This document shows, one piece after another, positions 9,994-36,290 of a stretch of 36,823 nt of DNA (positions are counted from its first letter, which is position 1; each line of letters begins with the position of its first letter). The position numbers and the translations under genes were made by a program. This DNA comes from Chitinophagales bacterium (GTDB lineage: Bacteria > Bacteroidota > Bacteroidia > Chitinophagales > BACL12), in contig JAIBBA010000014.1 in assembly GCA_019694895.1 (NCBI GenBank), positions 1 through 36,823 on the forward strand, in the 5' to 3' direction. The notes beneath the pieces are model-generated. The model saw only the letters and a list, made by a program, of their open reading frames with translations. It had not been told where the DNA came from and searched no databases.

Positions 9994-12900
9994 CTATTCT
10001 TTAGTGAAATAAGTAATGTAATTACCACCATCTTGATGCACTAAAACCATATAATTTCCCGCAGGCAACTCTGCGATATTTAGGGTTAGAATATTTTCAA
10101 TGAATTGCAATTCCTTCACAGGCAGTTTTTGCCCCAACATATTAATGATCGAAACATCGTGATCACCCGATACATTGGGAATATTGACATTCAATATTGA
10201 TGACGCCGGATTTGGGTAAGCAATCACATGGTTTATGTCCAACGATTGAATATCGTCGCCTGCAAAAATTACTTCACAATACGTATCCTCACCAATTCCA
10301 TTTGACGCAGTTAAGCAAACATTATATTCTCCGATATTGGCATACGTGTGTGATGGATTTTGTAATCCACTTATACTTCCATCGCCAAAATCCCACGACC
10401 AATCGGTTGGTGCATTTGTGCTCAGGTCGGTAAACTTAATGGTTAATGGTCCAACATTGATGTATGAAAATGCTGCTGTTGGCGCGCCTGCCGTACTTGA
10501 AATAGTTACATCCTGACACCCGGTATTTACTCCTCCGGGACCTGTTACAGTGAGACAAACGCTATATATTCCATCCGTGGCGTAGGTATGCACAGGGTTT
10601 TCGACTGTAGAAAATGCACCATCATCAAAATCCCAGAACCAGGAGGTGGGAGTTCCGGTTGAGAGATCAGTAAATGAAACAACCGGATCGCCACTGTATG
10701 AGAATAATGCCACAGGTGCAGCATATCCATTAATTACCACAACCTTACAATCGGTTCCGGAGCCAATTCCGTTTGTAGCTGTTAAACAAACATTATAGCT
10801 TCCATTGGTAGGAAATGTGTGAACAGGATTTTCAACGGTACTAAAGGTGCCATCATCAAAATCCCAATCCCACGATGTTGGACTATTGGTAGAAAGATCT
10901 GTAAATGACACAGTTGGATCACCGGTGAAACTGAAGTCGACAACCGGAGATAAATAGCTGTCAATTACCACATCTTGACATGAAGTGCTCGTGCCTGCTC
11001 CATTAGATACTGTTAAGCAAACATGGTAGGTGCCGTTTACTGCATATGTATGTACCGGACTGGCAATGGCAGAGGTAAATCCATCGTCGAAATCCCAACT
11101 CCAGGATGTTGGTGAGCCGATGGAAAGATCTGTAAATGTAACAGTAGGATCGCCGCTATAAATCCAGTAAGCTGTTGGTGCAACGTATGAATCGATAGTA
11201 ACATTTTCGCAATGTGTATCTGACCCTGCACCGTTTGTTACAGTCAGACAAACATTATAAACGCCATTATCACTAAATGTATGAACAGGATCGGATTCAG
11301 TGCTCGTAAATCCATCGCCAAAATCCCAATACCATTCTGCCGGTGAGCCGGTAGAAAGATCTATAAATGCAACTTCAGGATCGCCGATGTAAGTAAAATC
11401 AGCTACAGGCTCATTCATGGCGATTATTTCTTCACACACTGTAGTTTCACCATAAACATTATATCCTGTCAGACATACATTGTATATACCCGGAGCATAA
11501 ATATGCGTTGGATTTTCAAGAGTAGAGGTGCCACCATCGCCAAATTCCCAATAATATTCTTCTGCATCAACAGAGAGATTTGTAAATGTTGCAGAATATG
11601 TCATTCCAACAGGAATCAAGGTATATGTAAAATCAACTGTTGGATTATATGGATCGAATCGCGAAGGATCGAATGCATTATATAAAATATTATTGATTAC
11701 AATATCATCAGCAGGAGAATCCTGAGTGGTTCCGGGTTCTTCATCCTGTTGCCACTGCAGGTGAATTTTTCCATCCATTACTTTTGGAAATGCACTTGCA
11801 TATGCATTTTCATGTCCCAGATAAGCAGTGTATGTAATGTTTACAGGTGATGTCCACGTGGTGCCACCATCATCAGAATAGCATCCGAATATATCATAGT
11901 ACGTTTGATTGCCGGCCGATATTTCATATTCAACCGGCATCATAAACATTAAATACACTCTGCCGGAAGATGGGTCGTAACATGCAGTTGGCATTGTAGT
12001 GACACTTTCTGCATAATACGCAGTGAAATCACTTCCCAAACCTGCATATGGATCATCCAGGCCGTCGTCATTATTCCAATCAACCATCACATCCAACACT
12101 GTAGCGGAGGCCATACCTGTATGCCAATAATATATGCCACTTGTTTTGGGAATGTAATAATATCCGGCAGCAGTGGTAGGATCATAAATGCGCATTCTTC
12201 CACTAAATACATGCACAGTGCCATCGTCTGTTATTATCATTTCATGCATGCCATCAGTTGTGTAAATGGTGTCTTTATCTCCATCGCCATCGTAATCAGA
12301 AGTTTGACCTGCAGCACCGGTATAATTATCGATAGGAAAATTTACTAAGGTTTGTGATGTCCATGTTCCCGGATCACCTTTTGATGGAGAATGCATTAAA
12401 ATCAAATCACAAAAATTAGCTCCGTAAAGTACGTAGACATCATTGCCATGAACTACTATTTGATAGCAATCGGGATTTACTAATTCGATGCCGTATGCTT
12501 CTTCAGTAAATGGAAGAAAATATTCATTTACTGCCCACGTTTCGCCTCCATCATCGGAACGGGAAAATAGTAACGATTCGTAGGTGATCTTTTTTGTATT
12601 AACAACGTAAATGTCATCGGTACCTTCAGGGCAAAATGCCATCGGATTATATCCGTCTATTACATTTGAACCGGCAGTCTCTGTCCAGTCGGTGGCTCCT
12701 ACTGTGCTGTTTTTATTTACGAGCAAACGCGTAGTTTCATCAGAAATAACGACCTCGTGGCCCATCACCTTTAATAGCTCGCCAAAATATGTTTTTTGAT
12801 CCTCCAGTCTTCCGCTTGGAAATGCACCCCAAGAGGTTCCGTTGAAGTGATTATAAAACATTCCGCGATCATTGAACGCTGCGCCAAATCCGTCGGATCC

Positions 12901-13065
12901 AACCCAGGCGGTGCTGACCTTTCCATCCGGATATACCAACAGCCGGTTGTGATTTGCCCAATAAGACTGAAAATCGAATGTTGTGTTGCCAACCAAGGTG
13001 GTTTGCGCCGAAAGGCCGGCTGTTACAATCATGAGGAGAATGCTGATAGTAAAAGCTTTCATCAT
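9994..13065 (-). CDS. Giant T9SS cargo protein: sialidase-like propeller plus six PKD domains
   Basis: 1023 residues. A signal peptide ends at about GLSAQ. Residues about 25-465 resemble a BNR/sialidase-like propeller with Asp-box-type repeats (SRSDDGGETW, YSDDGGTTW). Residues about 470-940 hold six PKD domains, each with a W-DFGDG/DFDDG core, an HTF/HTY turn and a VCLT...C pair. The last 80 residues are a T9SS type A sorting domain (AYPNPASS, NMLGQKL, ELPAGNYMV, ending FTKE). It is probably exported by Sec and T9SS to the surface. The propeller lacks a recognised catalytic set, so glycosidase activity is not claimed; adhesion or glycan binding is plausible. It is a full-length paralogue of the protein at 16980-20066: both share GTTTYD/GNTTFD openings, RGMF, FNGT(S/T)WG and DPSRFDPY. 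Confidence 0.9.
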   Translation of the reverse strand: MMKAFTISILLMIVTAGLSAQTTLVGNTTFDFQSYWANHNRLLVYPDGKVSTAWVGSDGFGAAFNDRGMFYNHFNGTSWGAFPSGRLEDQKTYFGELLKVMGHEVVISDETTRLLVNKNSTVGATDWTETAGSNVIDGYNPMAFCPEGTDDIYVVNTKKITYESLLFSRSDDGGETWAVNEYFLPFTEEAYGIELVNPDCYQIVVHGNDVYVLYGANFCDLILMHSPSKGDPGTWTSQTLVNFPIDNYTGAAGQTSDYDGDGDKDTIYTTDGMHEMIITDDGTVHVFSGRMRIYDPTTAAGYYYIPKTSGIYYWHTGMASATVLDVMVDWNNDDGLDDPYAGLGSDFTAYYAESVTTMPTACYDPSSGRVYLMFMMPVEYEISAGNQTYYDIFGCYSDDGGTTWTSPVNITYTAYLGHENAYASAFPKVMDGKIHLQWQQDEEPGTTQDSPADDIVINNILYNAFDPSRFDPYNPTVDFTYTLIPVGMTYSATFTNLSVDAEEYYWEFGDGGTSTLENPTHIYAPGIYNVCLTGYNVYGETTVCEEIIAMNEPVADFTYIGDPEVAFIDLSTGSPAEWYWDFGDGFTSTESDPVHTFSDNGVYNVCLTVTNGAGSDTHCENVTIDSYVAPTAYWIYSGDPTVTFTDLSIGSPTSWSWDFDDGFTSAIASPVHTYAVNGTYHVCLTVSNGAGTSTSCQDVVIDSYLSPVVDFSFTGDPTVSFTDLSTNSPTSWDWDFDDGTFSTVENPVHTFPTNGSYNVCLTATNGIGSGTDCKVVVINGYAAPVALFSYSGDPVVSFTDLSTGTPTSWFWDFDDGAFSTVENPVHTYATDGIYSVCLTVTGPGGVNTGCQDVTISSTAGAPTAAFSYINVGPLTIKFTDLSTNAPTDWSWDFGDGSISGLQNPSHTYANIGEYNVCLTASNGIGEDTYCEVIFAGDDIQSLDINHVIAYPNPASSILNVNIPNVSGDHDVSIINMLGQKLPVKELQFIENILTLNIAELPAGNYMVLVHQDGGNYITYFTKE

Positions 13066-13180
13066 AGTATACTATTGAGTGTAAGAAACTGTATATAAAC
13101 TTACACCATAGGATACAGAGCGTGTTTATTTAAGTATTATGCTTTCAGGTTACGGCGGTCACATTTTGATAAATATTTGC

Positions 13181-13209
13181 AAAAAAAAGGCGGAACAATG
13201 TCCGCCTTC
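13181..13209 (-). terminator. Hairpin terminator left by the decayed gene
   Basis: AAGGCGGA (13187-13194) pairs with TCCGCCTT (13201-13208) around a 6-base loop, with an A8 tract that becomes a U-tract on the minus strand. It sits 20 bases beyond the stop codon of the T9SS relic at 13228. Confidence 0.85.
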
Positions 13210-13227
13210 TTCAAGATTTTAAATTAT

Positions 13228-13440
13228 TTAAAATTTTATAATATTACTACGATATAAATAGTTTTCGATGATAATTTTAACAGTATGTACACCTGAAGGT
13301 AGCGAAGAAACGTTAACCTTACAATTATTAATATGCCATTCTACCTTGTCACTAAAGTTGATCTCTTGTCAATTTACTGAGCTTACATATACTGCTGCAT
13401 TGGTATGTTGCTCCGGAAGTTCCTAATTAATAATAAGGAT
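13228..13440 (-). pseudogene. Relic of a T9SS type A C-terminal sorting domain
   Basis: Read on the minus strand from about 13425 down to the TAA at 13230-13228, the frame gives ELPEQHTNAAVYVSSVN, a stop, then QEINFSDKVEWHINNCKVNV, SSLPSGVHTVKIIIENY and finally IIKF. This lines up with the sorting domain of the neighbour at 13509: GDIHITSVTGQEV, IINVSKLAAGSYTVKML, QFVKL. In-frame stops at the TGQ turn and before ELPE, and a probable frameshift near the expected PNP motif (CATTGGGTAAATCCT reads HWVNP in another frame), show decay. Nothing of the upstream cargo survives; the relic abuts the terminator of the next gene. Its own terminator is intact. Confidence 0.75.
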
Positions 13441-13460
13441 TTACCCAATGAATTTTGCAA

Positions 13461-13490
13461 AATAAAAAAGGCGAGACATTGTCTCGCCTT
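13461..13490 (-). terminator. Terminator of the GEVED/PKD gene
   Basis: AAGGCGAGAC (13468-13477) pairs perfectly with GTCTCGCCTT (13481-13490) around a 3-base loop, followed on the minus strand by a T-rich run. It lies 19 bases past the stop at 13509. Confidence 0.92.
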
Positions 13491-13508
13491 TCAATGATAT
13501 TGTTGGAA

Positions 13509-16500
13509 TTACAATTTAACAAACTGTCCTGTAAACAGCTGATTATCAACCAGCATCTTCACCGTGTAGGAGCCGGCGGCTAGTTTGCTTACATTGATAA
13601 TGCAAATGCCATTATCCCAGCTGATTATACTGTTGTCGCCAACTTCCTGTCCAGTTACAGACGTAATATGAATATCGCCTGAAAGTGTGCCTGCAGGCAG
13701 TCCTTCTATCATAGTATATGTTCCGGCAGGATTTGGATAACAATTCAATGTGATTTGATCCAGAACCTGTATAGCATTATCCGTTACATTTATTGATTTA
13801 CAATCAGTGTTGGTTCCAAAATCATTTGTTGCGGTCAAGCAAACTTCATATACAGCTTCAACTGCATAAGCATGTGTTGGGTTTTGAAGTCCTGAGATCG
13901 CTCCGTCACCAAAATCCCACAACCAATCTGATGGCGAATCGCTTGAAAGATCAGTGAAAGCTACAGTTGGTGAATTGATTACATATGAGAAATCAATTGT
14001 AGGAGCAGATCCATTACCTGCGATGGTTACATCAGTGCAATATGCATCAGAACCTCCCGGACTCACAATCGACAGGCAAACATTGAATATTCCATTTGTT
14101 GCGTAAACGTGTGATGGATTTTCAAGTGTACTTACGCCGCCGTCGCCAAAATTCCATAACCATGAATTTGGACTGCCGGTTGAGAGATCGGTAAATGTAG
14201 TTACCGGGTCACCGCTGAATGAGAACAATGCGCTTGGTGCAACATAGCCTGTAACAATAATTGTTTTACATTCTGTATCTGAACCTGCAATATTGCCGGC
14301 TGTAAGACATACGTCATAGGTGCCATCAGAAGCATATAAGTGAATAGGATTTTCTAAGGAAGAAGTTCCGCCATCACCAAAATCCCATGCCCATGTTGTA
14401 GGTGCATTTGAACTGATATCAGTAAATTCAACATCAGGATCACCGGTGTAAGTAAAGTCGGCAACCGGAATATAGACATATGAATCTATAATTACATCCT
14501 GACAAGAGGTGTTACTTCCTACGGCATTTGTTGCGGTCAAACATGTATTATAAGTTCCATTGGTTGTGAAGGTGTGTGTTGGATTTTCCAGTGTACTTAC
14601 ACCACCATCTCCAAACGACCATGCCCAGCTTGTCGGACTGTTTGTTGAAAGATCCGTGTAAGTTACGGTTGGGTCACCTGTAAATGTAAATGCAGCCACC
14701 GGTGATAAATATGAATCGATGGTAATCAATTGACATGATGTGTTAGATCCGGTTGCATTTGTTGCAGTTAAGCAAACATTATATACGCCATTTGATGCAT
14801 ATAAATGAGATGGATTTTCTAAAGTAGAAGTGCCGCCATCACCAAAATTCCAGAACCAGCTTGTAGGGCTATTCAATGATGCATCTGTAAAGCTAACTGC
14901 AGGATCGCCGCTGTAGGTAAATGCAGCAACAGGCGCGAGATAATAATCAATAACCACAAATTGGCATGAAGTATTTGAACCGGTTGCATTTGTTGCTGTC
15001 ATACATACATTAAATGTTCCATTATAGGTGTAAGTATGTGTTGGGTTTTCTAAAGTAGAAGTGCCACCATCACCAAAATTCCAGAACCAGCTAGTTGGGC
15101 TGTTCAATGATGCATCAACAAATGACACCGTTGGTTCACCACTGAATGTAAAATTGGCAACAGGAGGTACATAAGAATCAATTACCACATTTTGACAGGC
15201 TGTATTTGATCCATATAAATTTGTTGCAGTAAGACAAACATTATAGGTGCCGTTTGTTGCGTAAAGGTGTGCCGGATTTGTTGCTGTTGAAATACCGCCA
15301 TCTCCAAACGCCCAGCTATATGAGGTAGGTAAGCCGGTAGAGGTGTTAGTAAAAGTAACAGTTGGATCACCTGCATATGTAAAGGCTGCAGTTGGTATAG
15401 TGCCGGGAATAATATTTACATTATAATCTTCTGTTTCTCCAAAACCATATTCATCACAAGGCAAAATCCCTATCTGATTCCAAACTTCTCTTACGCGCAA
15501 TCGGGTTGTTCCGGTTGCAGCTGTAACAGGCACTGTAAAAATGATATTACCTGTAGCCATAGCCGCAAGGTTAGTCACTTCACCTAATTTTTCAGAAGCT
15601 TCAAATACACCATTATGATTATAATCTATCCATGCAGCGAAACCATTTTGTGTGGCATATGTGCCTACCGTTACACTTAATGTATTTGATGTGCCGGCCA
15701 TTAAATCAGTTGACAATGCTGTGTAATAATTATAGAAAGGAGCAGGTAGCGCTCCGGTTGTGTTATTTAGTGTTCCCAATACTGCGTGACTAATATAATC
15801 GCCTTCTGTAGTACCGGTAGTATATGTTGGTATACAATAACAACTTGTTGGGTCATTTTGGTTTACAGTAACAGGGCTTGAAACTTCAAAATCTCCGCTG
15901 ATGGTACAAGTTACTTTACAACGATATAATGTTGTGGCAATTTGCGTAGTTGTTAAACTAGACGACACAGCTCCCGGAATTAATGAATATGCCGCACCGT
16001 CGGGAGAAGAGTACCAAGTATAGGTAATTCCCAATTCTGCAACTGGTGGCACTGATAAAGTAAATTCTTCACCAATACACACATTGGTTGCGGTAGTGTT
16101 TGTTACACCTAAGCTTGGAACAACGGCGCAATCAGTACCGGGAATAGTTGTAAAAATTACTTGAGGTCTATAGTCCGGACCGCCGGGAGAATTCTCCCAA
16201 TATTCGGTACCTGTATAACCACATGGGTCAGGCTCTGTATCGCTTTGTCGTGTATGAGATCCATTAAAAGCTAATGGGCCTGTCCATGTAACCCTTGCAT
16301 TTTTTGTGAATGTTGCATTAAAGTCGCCACCACAAACTTCTACTATAATACTTGAAACACCATCCCAAAAGAATGGAGATGCAAGCGTAAATGTGTTGAT
16401 TCCTAAAACAGGATTATAAAATGTTGGTCCCCATACTGTAGTTGCACCCTCTTCCCATGTTGTAAGTCCAAGTGAGGTAGTGCCGCTATTAAGGAGTTTG

Positions 16501-16781
16501 ATAGTGTAGTCTTCAGTACCATCAATAGTTCCAGGAAGCGCAGCAACGTTCCAGGCTATTTCGGTGATAAATCCGGCCGACATACCCATGTCAGTAAGCT
16601 CAGATGCACGATATAGATATTGTGCACGCATGGTTTTGTAATAATCACCGAAAGGTGAAGGGTAGTTTGTAGGACCCGGCATACCGTTGTCGGCTCCAAT
16701 TGTAAAGGTCTGTGCCGTTAAGCAGGAACTGATTCCAAGTATTAAGCTGAGAGTCAGTAGTTTTAATGTGCGTTTTTTCAT
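13509..16781 (-). CDS. Giant T9SS cargo protein: GEVED domain plus seven PKD domains
   Basis: 1090 residues. The signal peptide ends at about CLTAQ. Residues about 25-215 form a beta-rich N-terminal domain (TIGADNGMPGPTNYPSPFGD, NSGTTSLGLTTWEEGA) of the kind often found at the front of Bacteroidota adhesins. An Ig-like segment (YTWYSSPDG, YRCKVTC) follows. A GEVED domain is at about 310-460, recognised by AAWIDYNHNGVFEASEKLGE and FGETEDYNV. Seven PKD domains with a 77-residue period fill about 465-1000, and the T9SS type A sorting domain closes the protein (CYPNPAG, VTGQEV, LAAGSYTVKM, QFVKL). No enzyme motif was seen; a surface adhesin or structural role is inferred. PKD units 2 and 3 are nearly identical in sequence, pointing to recent internal duplication. 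Confidence 0.9.
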   Translation of the reverse strand: MKKRTLKLLTLSLILGISSCLTAQTFTIGADNGMPGPTNYPSPFGDYYKTMRAQYLYRASELTDMGMSAGFITEIAWNVAALPGTIDGTEDYTIKLLNSGTTSLGLTTWEEGATTVWGPTFYNPVLGINTFTLASPFFWDGVSSIIVEVCGGDFNATFTKNARVTWTGPLAFNGSHTRQSDTEPDPCGYTGTEYWENSPGGPDYRPQVIFTTIPGTDCAVVPSLGVTNTTATNVCIGEEFTLSVPPVAELGITYTWYSSPDGAAYSLIPGAVSSSLTTTQIATTLYRCKVTCTISGDFEVSSPVTVNQNDPTSCYCIPTYTTGTTEGDYISHAVLGTLNNTTGALPAPFYNYYTALSTDLMAGTSNTLSVTVGTYATQNGFAAWIDYNHNGVFEASEKLGEVTNLAAMATGNIIFTVPVTAATGTTRLRVREVWNQIGILPCDEYGFGETEDYNVNIIPGTIPTAAFTYAGDPTVTFTNTSTGLPTSYSWAFGDGGISTATNPAHLYATNGTYNVCLTATNLYGSNTACQNVVIDSYVPPVANFTFSGEPTVSFVDASLNSPTSWFWNFGDGGTSTLENPTHTYTYNGTFNVCMTATNATGSNTSCQFVVIDYYLAPVAAFTYSGDPAVSFTDASLNSPTSWFWNFGDGGTSTLENPSHLYASNGVYNVCLTATNATGSNTSCQLITIDSYLSPVAAFTFTGDPTVTYTDLSTNSPTSWAWSFGDGGVSTLENPTHTFTTNGTYNTCLTATNAVGSNTSCQDVIIDSYVYIPVADFTYTGDPDVEFTDISSNAPTTWAWDFGDGGTSSLENPIHLYASDGTYDVCLTAGNIAGSDTECKTIIVTGYVAPSALFSFSGDPVTTFTDLSTGSPNSWLWNFGDGGVSTLENPSHVYATNGIFNVCLSIVSPGGSDAYCTDVTIAGNGSAPTIDFSYVINSPTVAFTDLSSDSPSDWLWDFGDGAISGLQNPTHAYAVEAVYEVCLTATNDFGTNTDCKSINVTDNAIQVLDQITLNCYPNPAGTYTMIEGLPAGTLSGDIHITSVTGQEVGDNSIISWDNGICIINVSKLAAGSYTVKMLVDNQLFTGQFVKL

Positions 16782-16837
16782 AACTGGCTGGTTATTAATG
16801 TTGTCGTGTAATTTGTAGTGTTTTGGTAAAAAGTTAC

Positions 16838-16845
16838 CAAAAGTA
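16838..16845 (-). promoter_or_regulatory. -7 box TACTTTTG for the GEVED/PKD gene
   Basis: The minus strand reads TACTTTTG about 57 bases before the ATG at 16781. It overlaps a perfect 9-bp inverted repeat, TTTTGGTAA (16821-16829) and TTACCAAAA (16834-16842). The repeat could be an operator or a hairpin at the very 5' end of the transcript. No clear -33 element was seen. Confidence 0.45.
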
Positions 16846-16928
16846 GGGGTTTTGCACTAAAAATTGGTAAATATCAATGCTATTATACCTGCTATATACT
16901 GTCAGGTTTCTTCAAATCCTTACAAAAT

Positions 16929-16958
16929 AAAAGGTCGCCCCATAGGAGGCGACCTTTT
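16929..16958 (-). terminator. Terminator of the second propeller/PKD gene
   Basis: AAAAGGTCGCC (16929-16939) pairs with GGCGACCTTTT (16948-16958), giving a GC-rich stem with flanking A/T tracts, about 20 bases past the stop at 16980. Confidence 0.92.
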
Positions 16959-16979
16959 AAAGTGCTGAATATCAATAAG

Positions 16980-19900
16980 TTATTCTTTCACAAACTGTCC
17001 AATGTAAGCGGCATTGCCATTTGTCATATACAGTGTATATGCGCCGGAAGCTAATTCCCCTATATTGATTGTAAGTGTTTGATTCTGAATAGCTTGGATG
17101 TTAGAGTTAACCACTTTTTGACCTACGGTATTAAAAATGGCCACCTGAACATCACCGGTGATTGCCGGAAGTGCAATGGAGATAGCACCTTCAGCAGGAT
17201 TAGGCCAAACATTCAGATTAGTTACATTCAATCCGGCAATAGCTGTTACATCTACAACCTTACAAACATCGTCGCCGCCGCCTGCGTTTGAAGCTTCGAG
17301 GCATACCGTAAATGAACCGCCGGCTGTGTAAACGTGAACCGGATTCTGTTCAGTGCTTGTACCGCCATCACCAAAATCCCAAGCCCATGTGGTAGGTGAA
17401 TTACTTGAGTTATCAAAGAAGGATACGGATCCTCCCACACCAAAGAAGAAGTTAAAGTCGGCAACCGGAGCGGTTACAACGGATCCTATCACAACATCTT
17501 CGCAATACACATCAACACCTCCGGGGCCTGTAGATTCAAGACAAACATTATATGTTCCATTAGAAGTATAAGTATGCACCGGATTTTCTTCGCTGCTAAA
17601 TGAGCCATCGTCAAAATTCCAGAACCATGAAGTGGAATTCACAGAAAGATTTGTGAAGATAACGTCGGGATCTCCTGAGTAAGTAAACATTGCATCAGGA
17701 GCCACATATGATGAGATTACAACTGCTTCGCAACCGGTAGTAGAACCTACTGCATTTGAGGCTGTCAGACATACATTGTAGGTACCATTTGCAGCATACA
17801 TGTAAACAGGGTTCTGTTCTGTGCTGAAAGACCCGTCGCCAAAATCCCATGACCATGAAGTTGGGTCTTCAGTTGATAGGTCGGTGAAACTAACAGTTGG
17901 ATCACCGGTGTATGAGAACATAACTGTAGGTGGCAAATACGAATCAATAATTACATCCTGACAGCTTGTGCTTGAGCCAAGTGCATTAGTTGCAGTAAGG
18001 CAAACATTATAAGTGCCGTTAGTAGCATATGTATGTACCGGATTTTGATCGGTAGAAACACCACCATCATCAAAAGTCCATGACCATGATGTTGGATCGC
18101 CGCCGGTTAAATCTGTGAAGCTAACTGTTGGGTCTCCGGTAAATGAGAAATTGGCCAATGGAGCTGCATAGCTGCTGATAATTACGTTTTCACATGCTGT
18201 ATTTGTTCCACCAGCATTAGTAACGGTGAGACAAACATTATAAATGCCATTAAATGCATATGTGTGCACCGGATTTTCTTCAGTAGAAGTTGCGCCATCA
18301 TCAAAATCCCAATACCAACTTGTAGGTTCATCGGTTGAAAGATCTGTGAATGTAACAGTTGGATCACCTGAATAATCAAATAATGCTACCGGTGGAACCA
18401 CAGCAATAATTTCCTGACATACTGTAGCTTCACCATAAACATTATAACCTGTTAAGCACACATCATAAACGCCTTCGGCAAATGTATGTGTAGGATTTGT
18501 GAGTGTTGAAGTACCACCATCACCAAAATCCCAGAAATATGTTTCGGCATCGGTAGATAAATTGGTAAACGTTGCATTAAATGTTGCACCTACGGCAGTA
18601 AGCACATAAGAATAATCCACTGTTGGTGCATATGGATCGAATCGTGAAGGATCCCAATCGCTGTATAAAATATAATTTGTGTGAATTGGATCTGCAGGAA
18701 CATCTACAGCCGTACCCGGATTATCATCCTGTTGCCAGATCATATGAATTTTACCATCAACAACGCGATCGTATACCATAGGAAAATAATTTTCTTTTCC
18801 CTTAAACGCGCTGTACGTAAGGTTTACAGGGTATGACCATGATTCGCCGCCGTCCTCAGAATAGGTGCCGAAAATGTCGCATTTAGACTCAGAAGTTGGT
18901 AATGTCGGATCACCGAATTGATCGGTGTACTCAACCGGCATTGTATAGGTGAGATACAATCGTCCTGTAGCAGGATCATAAGCTGCTGATGGCATAGAAG
19001 TAAAACTTTCGCCACCATAAGCAATAAATTGTTGTCCAATTCCTGCAAATGGATCATCCAGTCCATCATCATTTTTCCAGTCAACCAAAACGTCTAAATA
19101 ATACATGCCAACCAATCCTGTTTTCCAATAAAGGAATCCGCTGATGGTAGGAAAATATGACCATCCTGCTGTTGTTGGATCATCGTCAAGCATATAGTAT
19201 GCAGGAGCGAATACTTCGAGTGTGCCATCATCGGTGATAAGCATTTCGATATTGCCATCTGTTGTTAAAATGGTATCATAATCGCCATCAGTATCATAGT
19301 CGGTATCCTCACCAACAAGACCGGTATAATTTTCAAGTGGGTTATCCCAAATGATTTCAGAAGTCCATGATCCCGGATCGCCATTTGCATCAGAATGCAA
19401 CAGCACTAAGTCTGTATATGACGCACCGTAAAGAACATAAACATCAGAACCATAAACTGCAATTTGATAAGCTTCGGCTGTAATAGCTCCGAATCCTTCT
19501 GCAGTAGTTAGATATGGTAATACATATTCCAGTACTTCCCAGTTTTCACCACCATCGGTAGAACGTGAAAAATAAATCTGAGTAGGTGAGCTGGCGTTTG
19601 CATTTACTACGTAAACATCGTTGGTGCCGGCAGGGCAATAAGCATTTGGCCAAAGACCTGTAATATCGGTAGAACCTGCTGTTTCAGTCCAGCTTGTTCC
19701 GCCGATGGTTGCGTTTTTATACACGCGGATATTGGTTCCGTCATGGGAAAGAACGATCTCATGATCGCCCACATTAATGATTTCGCCAAATCCTGTTCTT
19801 ACGCCTTCAATTCGAGCAGTTGGAAAACCACCCCATGTAGTGCCGTTGTATTTATTAAAGAACATGCCCCTGTCGGAGAAAGTGGCTGCCAGGCTTGTTG

Positions 19901-20066
19901 AGCCTGTCCATAGCGCTGAAACCTTGCCATCGTCATATACATGGAGGCGGCTTTTATTGGCGCTGTTTGTTTGTAGATCGTAGGTGGTGGTTCCAATAGT
20001 CACGGGCTGTGCCAACACTGCACCCCATGCTACCACACCCAACATCAATGAGTAAATTTTTTTCAT
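16980..20066 (-). CDS. Giant T9SS cargo protein: sialidase-like propeller plus six PKD domains (paralogue)
   Basis: 1028 residues from ATG at 20066 (MKKIYSLMLG). The frame is open nine codons further, but the ATG gives a standard signal peptide ending at AVLAQ. Residues about 25-470 form a propeller with Asp-box-like SRSTDGGENW and YSEDGGESW. Six PKD domains follow, each with a W-DF(G/D)DG core and two Cys. A T9SS type A sorting domain ends the chain (VWPNPAEG, NTVGQKV, ELASGAYTLYM, QFVKE). It parallels the protein at 9994-13065 over its whole length, including TDGNIEMLITDDGTLEVF against TDGMHEMIITDDGTVHVF. PKD unit 5 lacks one residue in its SPTSW turn (NSTSW). Likely role: surface-exposed adhesin or ligand-binding protein; no catalytic residues were identified. 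Confidence 0.9.
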   Translation of the reverse strand: MKKIYSLMLGVVAWGAVLAQPVTIGTTTYDLQTNSANKSRLHVYDDGKVSALWTGSTSLAATFSDRGMFFNKYNGTTWGGFPTARIEGVRTGFGEIINVGDHEIVLSHDGTNIRVYKNATIGGTSWTETAGSTDITGLWPNAYCPAGTNDVYVVNANASSPTQIYFSRSTDGGENWEVLEYVLPYLTTAEGFGAITAEAYQIAVYGSDVYVLYGASYTDLVLLHSDANGDPGSWTSEIIWDNPLENYTGLVGEDTDYDTDGDYDTILTTDGNIEMLITDDGTLEVFAPAYYMLDDDPTTAGWSYFPTISGFLYWKTGLVGMYYLDVLVDWKNDDGLDDPFAGIGQQFIAYGGESFTSMPSAAYDPATGRLYLTYTMPVEYTDQFGDPTLPTSESKCDIFGTYSEDGGESWSYPVNLTYSAFKGKENYFPMVYDRVVDGKIHMIWQQDDNPGTAVDVPADPIHTNYILYSDWDPSRFDPYAPTVDYSYVLTAVGATFNATFTNLSTDAETYFWDFGDGGTSTLTNPTHTFAEGVYDVCLTGYNVYGEATVCQEIIAVVPPVALFDYSGDPTVTFTDLSTDEPTSWYWDFDDGATSTEENPVHTYAFNGIYNVCLTVTNAGGTNTACENVIISSYAAPLANFSFTGDPTVSFTDLTGGDPTSWSWTFDDGGVSTDQNPVHTYATNGTYNVCLTATNALGSSTSCQDVIIDSYLPPTVMFSYTGDPTVSFTDLSTEDPTSWSWDFGDGSFSTEQNPVYMYAANGTYNVCLTASNAVGSTTGCEAVVISSYVAPDAMFTYSGDPDVIFTNLSVNSTSWFWNFDDGSFSSEENPVHTYTSNGTYNVCLESTGPGGVDVYCEDVVIGSVVTAPVADFNFFFGVGGSVSFFDNSSNSPTTWAWDFGDGGTSTEQNPVHVYTAGGSFTVCLEASNAGGGDDVCKVVDVTAIAGLNVTNLNVWPNPAEGAISIALPAITGDVQVAIFNTVGQKVVNSNIQAIQNQTLTINIGELASGAYTLYMTNGNAAYIGQFVKE

Positions 20067-20107
20067 AGTATGATGTAAATTAAGTGGACGCAATTTAGGG
20101 AAAATTG

Positions 20108-32056: not shown

Positions 32057-34651
32057 ATGAATAAAAAAATTGCAATCATCATTATTATCGGGTCGATATT
32101 GTTAACATTCGTTAGCATGGCTATTGTTTTCATTTTGCAAAAAGATGATAATAATTTCCATCACACAGAGACGAATCCCGCACCTGTCAGGGTGGATGGT
32201 AATCATGAGAAGGAAGATGAATCCTATAATCGCGACAGACAAAATTTCTTCGACCAAATGCATAAATCTGCACCCGGAACAAATTGGAGAAAAATGGATG
32301 CCGATTTGCGATTTCAGTTAATGAAACAGCGCAGTAATAATCTTCGCACCGATGATATCGCTATGGATACCCTGGCATCAGGAGCATTAATTGGCGAATG
32401 GAATGAGATGGGTTCTTATAATACCTCCGGAAGAATAAGAGCAACAGAAGTAGATTTTGAAAATGAAACTATATATGCATTTTCCGACGGCGGTAATCTT
32501 TGGAAAGGCGATCTGGATGGCGAAAACTGGGCGGTTATCAATGATAATATGAAGATAACCGGAGCACATACGCTTCGAAAAATTGGTGATAGATTAATTG
32601 TAGGTTGCGACCAATGGGGTGTTCAAGGCGTTTTTTATACCGAAGACGAAGGGCTTACCTGGAATGCAACAACCGGTCTTGAAAATGTTGCAGCATGGGG
32701 CTATATCTCTGATATGGAAATATTAAATGATGCCAATCACACCATTTATTTATTGGCTTATGAATGGGATTATACAAATTGGTGGGATATCGTTTCGCTA
32801 TATCGCTCAGAAGATTTAGGAGTTTCATTCACTAAGCTCAGCTCATATGATGTTCCTGTTTATGGTGGGGCCAATCACTTCGTTTTGTGGTCACCGCCAT
32901 ACGGCTCTCCTGATTGCTATATGATAGAAAATACGCACGTTAATTTACTCGATGCCACCGGAACACCTGTATTGCAAGGAACACTGCCTATAACAGATGA
33001 TGGCGATTATATGTTGTGTGGTTTTGAGGGACCTTCCTCTACAAGCCTGTATGTGGCTCACAGAAACTATGTCGATAATTTCACACATTTTTATACTTCT
33101 TTCGATGGCGGTGTAAATTGGAACACAGAGGGTATTATTGAGGAAGGGAATTTCAGTAAGAATAGTTTTAATTGCTCTCAGAAACAGGAGGGATATTTAT
33201 TTTATGGTGGTGTTGATAGCTATAGGAGTTTTACTGCCGGTAATTCATGGGTGCGGAATAATTATTGGTACGAATATTATGGCGATATAGAATATAATCT
33301 GCACGCTGATATACCATTTATCAGAACTTTTATTGATGGTGGGGGAGATGAAATCGTTTTGATCAGTACTGATGGCGGCTTATATAAATCAACAGATAAT
33401 GGACTTATCTGGAATAATATCACTAACGAAGGCATGCGCAATGCTCAATATTATGATGTGTATACCTATCGATGGGTAACCGATATTTTGTTTGCAGGGG
33501 CGCAGGATCAGGGATATCAACGCAGTAGTTATACTATTGGTGATGACTATTATTTTGATCAGTTGATTAGTGGCGATTATGGTCATATTGTTTCAAGAAG
33601 CGGTGGTGATAATTTATGGTGCGTTTATCCGGGATTTGCCATGTATGTGAATGATGCAGCCTCGGCATCCAATCTTACTACATGGGATTTTCAGGGTTAT
33701 GGTCACCTTTGGATGGCGCCTATCATGCAAGATCCGTGGAACGATCAGGTGGCATGGTGGGGTGGGGGCTCCGATGCCGGCGGTGCCTACTTGTGGCGTT
33801 TGCAAAAAAGTGGTGCATTCATTTCAGGTGTGAAACAGGCAAAAAACTTTTCAGTTGCCGGCGGTGGTTCTATTTCAGCAATCAGCTATTCTCCTATTGA
33901 CCCCAATTATTGGTATTTACTTACCAGTGGAGGAAATTTCTATCATTCGGAAGATGCCGGTGAAACCTGGTATTTAAGTAGTGGATTTTCAGGTCCCGGA
34001 CCGCAATATTTTTATGGTGCAACTATCGAACCATCTAAATCGCAACTTGGAGTAGTGTATATCGGTGGAAGTGGTTATGATAATCCGGCAGTTTATATGT
34101 CTGACGATCATGGCGACAATTTTGTGGAATTACAAGATGGCCTCCCTCCAACACTAGTATATGATCTGGCTGTTGATCAAACCGACAGCCTGTTGTTTGC
34201 GGCAACGGAAGTTGCACCTTACGTTTGTGTACTTGCAGAAGGTAAATGGTATAATATAGCAGCTAATGATGCTCCACTGCAAACCTATTGGAGCGTCGAT
34301 TATGTTGATGAAATTAATACCGTTCGCTTTGGAACTTATGGCAGAGGTGCCTGGGAATTTGCCATAGAAAAATTACCTACCATAAATATTCATGATGCCA
34401 ATCAGGAAGCATTAATGAGCGTGTATCCAAATCCGGCCTCCGAAAAAATTCAAATCACCATTCCTGCTTATTTCTCTAATGCTGAGGTTACTGTTGTGAA
34501 TATGCAAGGCGATATTGTATATAAAACAAAGGCAACCATAAATAAAGACATGCCATATAACATTCCGGTTTCTGGCCTCGCAGCCGGTTCTTATGTGATT
34601 GCTGTGAAGCAAGGTGAAAAGATGTATACATCGAAGTTTGTTAGAATATAA
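32057..34651 (+). CDS. Sortilin/BNR-like propeller protein with T9SS sorting domain
   Basis: 864 residues. The N-terminus MNKKIAIIIIIGSILLTFV is very hydrophobic to about residue 28 and is followed directly by KDDNN, with no AxA cleavage site, so it could stay uncleaved. Residues about 70-780 make a long propeller of the sortilin/BNR type, with many Asp-box-like motifs (YTEDEGLTWN, YTSFDGGVNWNTE, STDGGLYKSTDNGLIWNN, YHSEDAGETWY, SDDHGDNFVEL). The C-terminal 75 residues are a T9SS type A sorting domain (VYPNPASE, NMQGDIV, GLAAGSYVIAV, KFVRI). No catalytic set was recognised; glycan or protein binding at the surface is inferred. It follows the phosphatase gene in the same direction and ends in a bidirectional terminator. 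Confidence 0.9.
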   Translation: MNKKIAIIIIIGSILLTFVSMAIVFILQKDDNNFHHTETNPAPVRVDGNHEKEDESYNRDRQNFFDQMHKSAPGTNWRKMDADLRFQLMKQRSNNLRTDDIAMDTLASGALIGEWNEMGSYNTSGRIRATEVDFENETIYAFSDGGNLWKGDLDGENWAVINDNMKITGAHTLRKIGDRLIVGCDQWGVQGVFYTEDEGLTWNATTGLENVAAWGYISDMEILNDANHTIYLLAYEWDYTNWWDIVSLYRSEDLGVSFTKLSSYDVPVYGGANHFVLWSPPYGSPDCYMIENTHVNLLDATGTPVLQGTLPITDDGDYMLCGFEGPSSTSLYVAHRNYVDNFTHFYTSFDGGVNWNTEGIIEEGNFSKNSFNCSQKQEGYLFYGGVDSYRSFTAGNSWVRNNYWYEYYGDIEYNLHADIPFIRTFIDGGGDEIVLISTDGGLYKSTDNGLIWNNITNEGMRNAQYYDVYTYRWVTDILFAGAQDQGYQRSSYTIGDDYYFDQLISGDYGHIVSRSGGDNLWCVYPGFAMYVNDAASASNLTTWDFQGYGHLWMAPIMQDPWNDQVAWWGGGSDAGGAYLWRLQKSGAFISGVKQAKNFSVAGGGSISAISYSPIDPNYWYLLTSGGNFYHSEDAGETWYLSSGFSGPGPQYFYGATIEPSKSQLGVVYIGGSGYDNPAVYMSDDHGDNFVELQDGLPPTLVYDLAVDQTDSLLFAATEVAPYVCVLAEGKWYNIAANDAPLQTYWSVDYVDEINTVRFGTYGRGAWEFAIEKLPTINIHDANQEALMSVYPNPASEKIQITIPAYFSNAEVTVVNMQGDIVYKTKATINKDMPYNIPVSGLAAGSYVIAVKQGEKMYTSKFVRI

Positions 34652-34656
34652 ATGGC

Positions 34657-34696
34657 AATAAAAAAACCGCATCCGATTAGATGCGGTTTTTTTATT
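34657..34696. terminator. Bidirectional hairpin terminator
   Basis: The arms AATAAAAAAACCGCAT (34657-34672) and ATGCGGTTTTTTTATT (34681-34696) are exact reverse complements, between convergent T9SS genes. Confidence 0.95.
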
Positions 34697-34712
34697 AAAT
34701 ATGTGTTATAGT

Positions 34713-36290
34713 TTATAATTTTTCAAAATTACTTATTGCCATTTGACTACCTTGTGTTGCCCTAAGCGTATAGATTCCTGCAGGCAGTGCAGAAACATCA
34801 ATGGATACAGAATTTCCGTAAGCAGTTGATGTAAGCACTACTTCACCTTGCAGATTCAATATATTGATTACCGCATTATTTTCTGTTCCTTCTAATTGCA
34901 GCACATTTGCAACAGGGTTTGGTGAAATGCTTAAGGTGTTTTGTAAGTCATTTATGTCAACATTACCAACAGTTACCATATCGCAATAGGTATCAGAACA
35001 TCCATAAGCATTATAACCTGTTACACAAACATTGTAAACACCGGCTGTTGCATAAATATGTGTCGGGTTTGATTCTGTCGATATGGTGCCATCACCAAAC
35101 TCCCAGTATTGCGATACAGCAGCACCACTTGTTTCGGTGAATGCAACACTCAAATCTGAAATAGTAGATGCAAAAGAGGCTGCTGCCGGTTCATCGTCTA
35201 TGAGCATGGTAACAGTATCGTAGATAACGCCTGACTGAGGATTGTATAGATAAAGAATTACACTTTCAAAGCTCTCATCAATTACATCGTGAATAGGAAC
35301 AATGTCAATAGTGCCTTCTGATGTCCACGCAGGTATGGTGAGCTGTTCGGGAATTGTTTCATAATCAACACCATTAATTGCTGATCCTCCGATCATATAA
35401 TCTATTACCAATGGTTCTGCTGATGGGATCTCATTTGTGAAAGTGAAATGTCCTGATGCACATTTTTCTACAGCAAATGTTAAATCATTATCTGCAAACA
35501 CATCGGTATGCATGCGAAGACTTCCAAGGCTTCCTGTTTCAAGGAAAACGCCGGAATCATAAATACCGTCAGAAGCATCTGCTATGGCCATTTTCATATG
35601 GTATGTTTCACCTGCGGTTACGGCTAGTTTAGCTTCAAGAACTGTTGTTAAGCCATCAAATTGAATATAGTAATCATCGGTACTATATGGCGTCATATAG
35701 CCATCGCCATTTTCGATATAATAATCTGAATAAGTTGTAGCGTTGATGTTGTTAATTGATACCGGTAAGTCTGTGCCCGGAACAGTAGCAATGTTTACCG
35801 GCGTTGGAATGCCGGGACCGCTCACCCAAAATGCAAATATGTCGTTGAACCCTGAAAATGTGAACTCAGGATATTCTTCTGATGCGAACACATATTTCAA
35901 TTTAACGGTATCTGCCATCACGGTCATATCAAAGGATATTGCACAGGCATCGTACGTGAGCCACATGGTAAGGCCTTCAAGATCAGTATCTCCGGGATAA
36001 TCTAAATAGGAAGAGGCTGCGCCAACATCATTTGGTCCTGCCGATGAGGCCGCTGTTCCCGAGGAAAGGAGAATGCCATTTTCTATACCCACATTCGCAT
36101 CCGTGCTATTGTAAAATGCAGATGCATCTGTATGGCAATTTCTCTCAATATTAGATACCACTATTCCCGGTCCTGCCAGAGAATAAATAAAGGTAGTATC
36201 ATTTGGCTCAGGTGTTAACGTTAACTGTGTAAAGGCACCTGAAAACATCAAAATACCTGACGTAAGGAGGAGTAATTTGTTTTTCATCAT
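34713..36290 (-). CDS. Choice-of-anchor L, Calx-beta-like and PKD T9SS protein
   Basis: 525 residues. A signal peptide ends near FSGAFTQ. Residues about 35-255 match the choice-of-anchor L domain: ENGILLSSGTA, LKYVFASEEYPEF, FNDIFAFWVSGPG, TYHMKMAIADASDGIYDSGVFLE. A Calx-beta-like segment follows (SAINGVDYETIPEQLTIPA, DESFESVILYLYNP), then one PKD domain (QYWEFGDGTISTESNPTHIY, with VCVTGYN...C) and a T9SS type A sorting domain (ISPNPVAN, NLQGEVV, ALPAGIYTLRA). Surface or secreted adhesin-like role inferred; no enzyme motif. Upstream, the minus strand has TAACTTTA (36312-36305), a one-mismatch -7 box about 14 bases before the ATG, inside an AGTGTT/AACACT inverted repeat. Confidence 0.88.
   Translation of the reverse strand: MMKNKLLLLTSGILMFSGAFTQLTLTPEPNDTTFIYSLAGPGIVVSNIERNCHTDASAFYNSTDANVGIENGILLSSGTAASSAGPNDVGAASSYLDYPGDTDLEGLTMWLTYDACAISFDMTVMADTVKLKYVFASEEYPEFTFSGFNDIFAFWVSGPGIPTPVNIATVPGTDLPVSINNINATTYSDYYIENGDGYMTPYSTDDYYIQFDGLTTVLEAKLAVTAGETYHMKMAIADASDGIYDSGVFLETGSLGSLRMHTDVFADNDLTFAVEKCASGHFTFTNEIPSAEPLVIDYMIGGSAINGVDYETIPEQLTIPAWTSEGTIDIVPIHDVIDESFESVILYLYNPQSGVIYDTVTMLIDDEPAAASFASTISDLSVAFTETSGAAVSQYWEFGDGTISTESNPTHIYATAGVYNVCVTGYNAYGCSDTYCDMVTVGNVDINDLQNTLSISPNPVANVLQLEGTENNAVINILNLQGEVVLTSTAYGNSVSIDVSALPAGIYTLRATQGSQMAISNFEKL

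Follow-up and report, generated by a model that had tools for sequence, protein, structure and literature searches.

Organization of the Cargo Locus

The window (the whole stretch of 36,823 nucleotides analyzed here) is one contig (C130) of a 3.3-Mb draft genome in 235 contigs (G000). On its minus strand lies a row of three long genes, read in the order cargo 3, cargo 2, and cargo 1, each encoding six or seven PKD repeats and a T9SS type A sorting domain (CTD); the PKD repeats are common to the cargo genes, at 50–60% protein identity. The gap between cargo 2 and cargo 1 measures 443 bp and contains two terminators, each consisting of a hairpin and a T run. Between the two hairpins is a damaged stretch of sorting-domain sequence (the scar). 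The features of this region are as follows.

9994–13065, minus strand: cargo 1, intact; BNR-like N-terminal region, 6 PKD repeats, T9SS CTD; downstream neighbor of the scar
13184–13211, minus strand: predicted intrinsic terminator hairpin of a putative lost gene, then a T run (from fold energy and stem)
13228–13422, minus strand: CTD remnant; 64 codons plus a terminal TAA (13230–13228), with an internal TGA (13371–13369)
13423–13447, minus strand: probably where the CTD remnant begins, in damaged form; it holds a TAG, a TAA, and, in a different frame, the piece "WVNP" (from six-frame reading)
13466–13492, minus strand: terminator hairpin of cargo 2 (from folding)
13509–16781, minus strand: cargo 2, intact; GEVED domain, 7 PKD repeats, T9SS CTD at about 13512–13757; upstream neighbor of the scar and its closest relative
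16980–20093, minus strand: cargo 3, a paralogue of cargo 1 (56% identity); 6 PKD repeats, T9SS CTD

Elsewhere in the window, two convergent T9SS cargo genes (32057–34651, plus strand, and 34713–36290, minus strand) have a single bidirectional terminator hairpin between them, which sits within 61 bp (34651–34713).

Reading Frame, Lesions, and Terminator

Read on the minus strand from 13422 to 13228, the scar translates as ELPEQHTNAAVYVSSVN, a stop, QEINFSDKVEWHINNCKVNVSSLPSGVHTVKIIIENYLYRSNIIKF, and a final stop. The open frame within it (13228–13368, 46 aa) has the C-terminal end ...NVSSLPSGVHTVKIIIENYLYRSNIIKF, directly before the stop; if the single TGA is read through, the frame stays colinear with the CTD of cargo 2 up to 13422. 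Six-frame reading places further in-frame stops upstream (TAG, 13425–13423; TAA, 13443–13441), together with the short "WVNP" piece in another frame (13447–13436), which can be likened to the CTD motif YPNP, with weak homology. The original prediction was of an orphan sorting-domain tail with stops and a frameshift at 13181–13440, lying between two live cargo genes and followed by an intact hairpin. The stops (TGA and TAG) are real in this assembly; the frameshift, to which the "WVNP" piece points weakly, is only plausible. The predicted coordinates are about right, and the remnant may extend a few bases beyond 13440, to about 13447. The segment 13423–13447 is likely the junction of a deletion with the 3′ flank of cargo 2.

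The hairpin after the scar is indeed intact (−16.7 kcal/mol, z −4.5), with an 11-nt stem formed by 13184–13194 and 13201–13211; both it and the hairpin of cargo 2 fold far better than shuffled sequence. The coding sequence is recognizable and carries disabling lesions: the 5′ part is missing, no start is present, the TAG and TGA lie in frame, and the terminator of cargo 2 separates the scar from that gene. The scar does not provide the intact frame expected at the C-terminus of a signal-peptide cargo. Its GC content is about 30%, versus 40–49% in the flanking genes, indicating AT-rich drift.

A string, AAATGTGACCGCC, follows the terminator of the scar and is related to TTTTGTGACATGC, found after the terminators upstream of cargo 1 and cargo 2 in G001, a genome of the same genus (locus L075, about 1775–1800; locus L078, about 1950–1980); these strings are possibly a promoter-associated element.

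Identity as a Sorting Domain

Generic profiles recognize the scar marginally: its longest open piece scores E 0.033 (14.9 bits, below the cut-off of 27) with Por_Secre_tail (PF18962) and E 0.016 (15.2 bits, below the cut-off of 23) with TIGR04183. Comparison within its own genome is much stronger. A translated whole-genome search, the kind of check that the original prediction had proposed against the neighboring sorting domains, returned the CTD of cargo 2 as the best match at E 4.8e-8, the next best being 0.06; the local BLOSUM62 score is 109, whereas 200 shuffled versions of the scar, compared with 125 CTDs, never exceeded 56. A tree built from 16 CTDs contains a single strongly supported pair, which unites the scar with the CTD of cargo 2 (98/99). 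Nucleotide alignment of the scar with CTDs revealed nothing apart from the terminator, and here too cargo 2 is closest among the CTD genes compared: terminator and flank align with those of cargo 2 at a score of 42, tied third among 6,903 pairs of CTD-gene 3′ flanks. Generic profiles alone would leave the identity undecided, but similarity to genuine CTDs encoded elsewhere in this genome settles it: the scar is a T9SS CTD remnant, sister to the CTD of cargo 2. That generic CTD profiles miss relics of this sort is a warning.

The 64 C-terminal codons can be aligned over their full length to an intact T9SS type A CTD, and the L-[PA]-[SA]-G turn is retained, as is the hydrophobic final strand that closes with K-[FL]. 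In contrast to such domains, the scar has stops, scores below the curated cut-offs of both families, and possesses neither a start nor, in frame, the N-terminal strand that bears the PNP motif. Its CTD groups with that of cargo 2 and hence falls with the GEVED-PKD-CTD cargo family of the genus (cargo 2 and, in G001, C238/C201, C99, and C100); the N-terminal and PKD parts are gone, so that membership past the CTD is presumptive.

Comparison with a Related Genome

G001 is the sole genome of the same genus compared and the nearest relative among the genomes searched. It has the array in the same order (cargo 3-2-1), distributed among several contigs, with cargo 3 on C23/C238, cargo 2 on C238/C201, and cargo 1 on C201. 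The assembly breaks fall inside PKD repeats, and the join of C238 to C201 in cargo 2 was inferred from a roughly 290-bp near-identical overlap. The original prediction had proposed looking for an intact gene at the position of the scar in close relatives; G001 has there a 145-bp spacer with one terminator and no scar. With three genes at this place in G001, no intact orthologue of the putative lost gene was found there; either that gene would have arisen in the lineage of the window, or it was cleanly lost in G001.

Wider searches gave little. Alignment of the spacers of the two genomes revealed no significant similarity; a contig scan with a profile of the cargo 1 N-terminal region matched the G001 contig alone; a plasmid collection gave no match; and a DNA search of 40 relatives with the scar region produced terminator-sized matches only. 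The scar peptide found nothing better than E 0.03 in G001 to G005, as expected because CTDs diverge so fast.

Conservation as a non-coding RNA, which the original prediction had set against itself along with a lack of CTD similarity, was considered and rejected. An Rfam search of the region gave chance-level matches only, none near the gathering score, the scar region is absent from G001, and the 40 relatives match the terminator alone; the CTD similarity, for its part, exists.

G001 also contains two dispersed GEVED-type paralogues of cargo 2 (C99:8843–11338 and C100:12190–13533; 53–56% identity); the genome of the window yielded no comparably complete counterpart.

Codon Positions and History of the Scar

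The scar and the CTD of cargo 2 align without gaps over 63 codons, with identities of 49%, 62%, and 21% at codon positions 1, 2, and 3. Third positions are thus random (saturated), whereas first and second positions are kept, as is the hydrophobic pattern. This contrast indicates that both copies diverged under protein-level selection and that the gene of the scar was lost late. When the CTD of cargo 2 was mutated neutrally along one branch to equal DNA identity, the observed protein similarity was reached in none of 2,000 simulations, the best score being 54 versus 110 observed. A two-branch simulation, in which cargo 2 remains under selection and the scar switches from selection to neutrality, gave a median neutral share of 14% of the history of the scar (5–95%: 1–61%). 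The mutation models behind these simulations are simple, cover 63 codons, and leave indels uncounted; the absence of indels from the alignment points in the same direction, that is, to a long functional history. Codon positions and simulations alike indicate divergence under selection before decay, and from them the scar is predicted to have functioned in protein sorting over the greater part of its existence.

These results bear directly on the possibility that a tandem duplication copied just the final ~300 bp of cargo 2, comprising its CTD and terminator, and that this downstream copy decayed, never having been a gene. A single event would be enough, and both the CTD and the terminator of the scar most resemble those of cargo 2. 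However, a failed copy of this kind accounts poorly for third positions that are saturated beside preserved first and second positions, 63-codon colinearity, and hydrophobic pattern; in the two-branch simulation the fully neutral (never-functional) model dropped from a prior of 20% to a posterior of 0.5%, even without charging for the missing indels. We consider a partial duplication very improbable. The scar offers a small worked example of how codon positions distinguish the remains of a once-functional gene from an abortive partial duplicate.

Origin of the Scar

The scar is best explained as the CTD-plus-terminator tail of a lost T9SS cargo gene, a sister of cargo 2, deleted after long use; we assign this reading a probability of roughly 0.7. 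A T9SS cargo gene would once have stood on the minus strand between cargo 2 and cargo 1, presumably as a tandem sister of cargo 2, and its product was probably secreted and in use during most of the time that the gene existed. A deletion may then have taken out the promoter of this gene together with the N-terminal region, the PKD repeats, and the first CTD strand, joining the 3′ flank of cargo 2 (about 13447, just downstream of its terminator) to the remnant CTD. The remnant, startless and cut off by the terminator of cargo 2, would now be decaying; it is probably idle, and at most a second terminator upstream of cargo 1. The family of cargo 2 does duplicate, as the two further dispersed copies in G001 attest, which favors a sister gene. 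Against it, the similarity of the terminators fits oddly with saturated third positions, unless terminators are constrained or homogenized.

Other features are those of a truncated pseudogene in a tandem paralogue cluster: a 3′ remnant with its terminator, stops, AT-rich drift, and the adjacent gene as nearest relative. Nothing notable departs from that pattern, except that an intact counterpart of the scar was not found, and the scar is an ordinary gene relic. No earlier description of an orphan T9SS CTD scar emerged from our searches of the literature. As the tail of a lost sister gene, the scar would mark the disappearance of one gene from a cluster that encodes secreted PKD proteins.

Unequal recombination had been proposed alongside deletion as the mechanism. 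Shared PKD repeats, and the assembly breaks of G001 inside them, would be in keeping with homologous recombination between tandem cargo genes that made the scar directly. Crossing-over within PKD or CTD sequence, however, would leave a chimeric or cleanly deleted gene rather than a 5′-truncated CTD behind the intact terminator of cargo 2, and no repeat was seen flanking the junction. Since PKD crossing-over would leave a chimera, this is not the likely mechanism, and as a direct origin of the scar we rate it slightly below even the partial duplication; deletion appears to fit better.

A further claim, that the cluster once held four genes or more, is likely, though not proven: the comparable array of G001 consists of three genes, with a short, clean spacer at this place, and an exchange of the CTD of cargo 2 would leave the same relic without any fourth gene. 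The scar would in that case be the former CTD and terminator of cargo 2 itself, superseded when a cassette made up of a diverged CTD and its terminator, originating in a different cargo gene, inserted upstream and took over. An exchange likewise predicts a long functional history, and it would place the terminator of the scar where the terminator of cargo 2 stands in G001, directly upstream of cargo 1. The G001 orthologue, however, is at least as close to the present CTD of cargo 2 as to the scar (BLOSUM scores of 71 versus 45 over the same 63 codons), the CTD of cargo 2 is no more diverged from its orthologue than that of cargo 3 from its own, and no donor CTD closely similar to that of cargo 2 was found in the genome. 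CTDs diverge too fast for certainty on this question, and we regard such an exchange as unlikely. A genus-wide version, in which CTD and terminator turn over as exchangeable 3′ cassettes, cargo 2 having been swapped and the scar being its discarded CTD, is somewhat more doubtful; if true, it would tie in with the contrast, among orthologues, between CTD identity (28%) and PKD-repeat identity (65–75%) described below.

Divergence of Sorting Domains between Orthologues

The bodies of orthologous cargo genes in the two species (window 13509–20093 versus G001 loci L075 and L078) are 64–78% identical; for cargo 2 and cargo 3, identity in the PKD regions is 67–75%. CTD identity falls to 22–35%, with the drop at the PKD/CTD boundary, and is 28% for each of cargo 2 and cargo 3. 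Because CTDs diverge so fast, orthologues of the putative lost gene would not be recognizable by this domain. CTDs of Porphyromonas gingivalis combine low sequence similarity with a common fold (PMC11285876; PMC5445135); low CTD similarity, known within that species, is seen here between orthologues. That sorting domains diverge far faster than the proteins that carry them has implications for how loosely the T9SS recognizes its signal.

The CTDs of cargo 1, 2, and 3 in the window (9997–20093) score higher with one another (cargo 1 and cargo 3, 141; cargo 2 and cargo 3, 122) than those of cargo 2 and cargo 3 do with their G001 orthologues (107 and 116, respectively), a hint of within-genome homogenization or co-adaptation.
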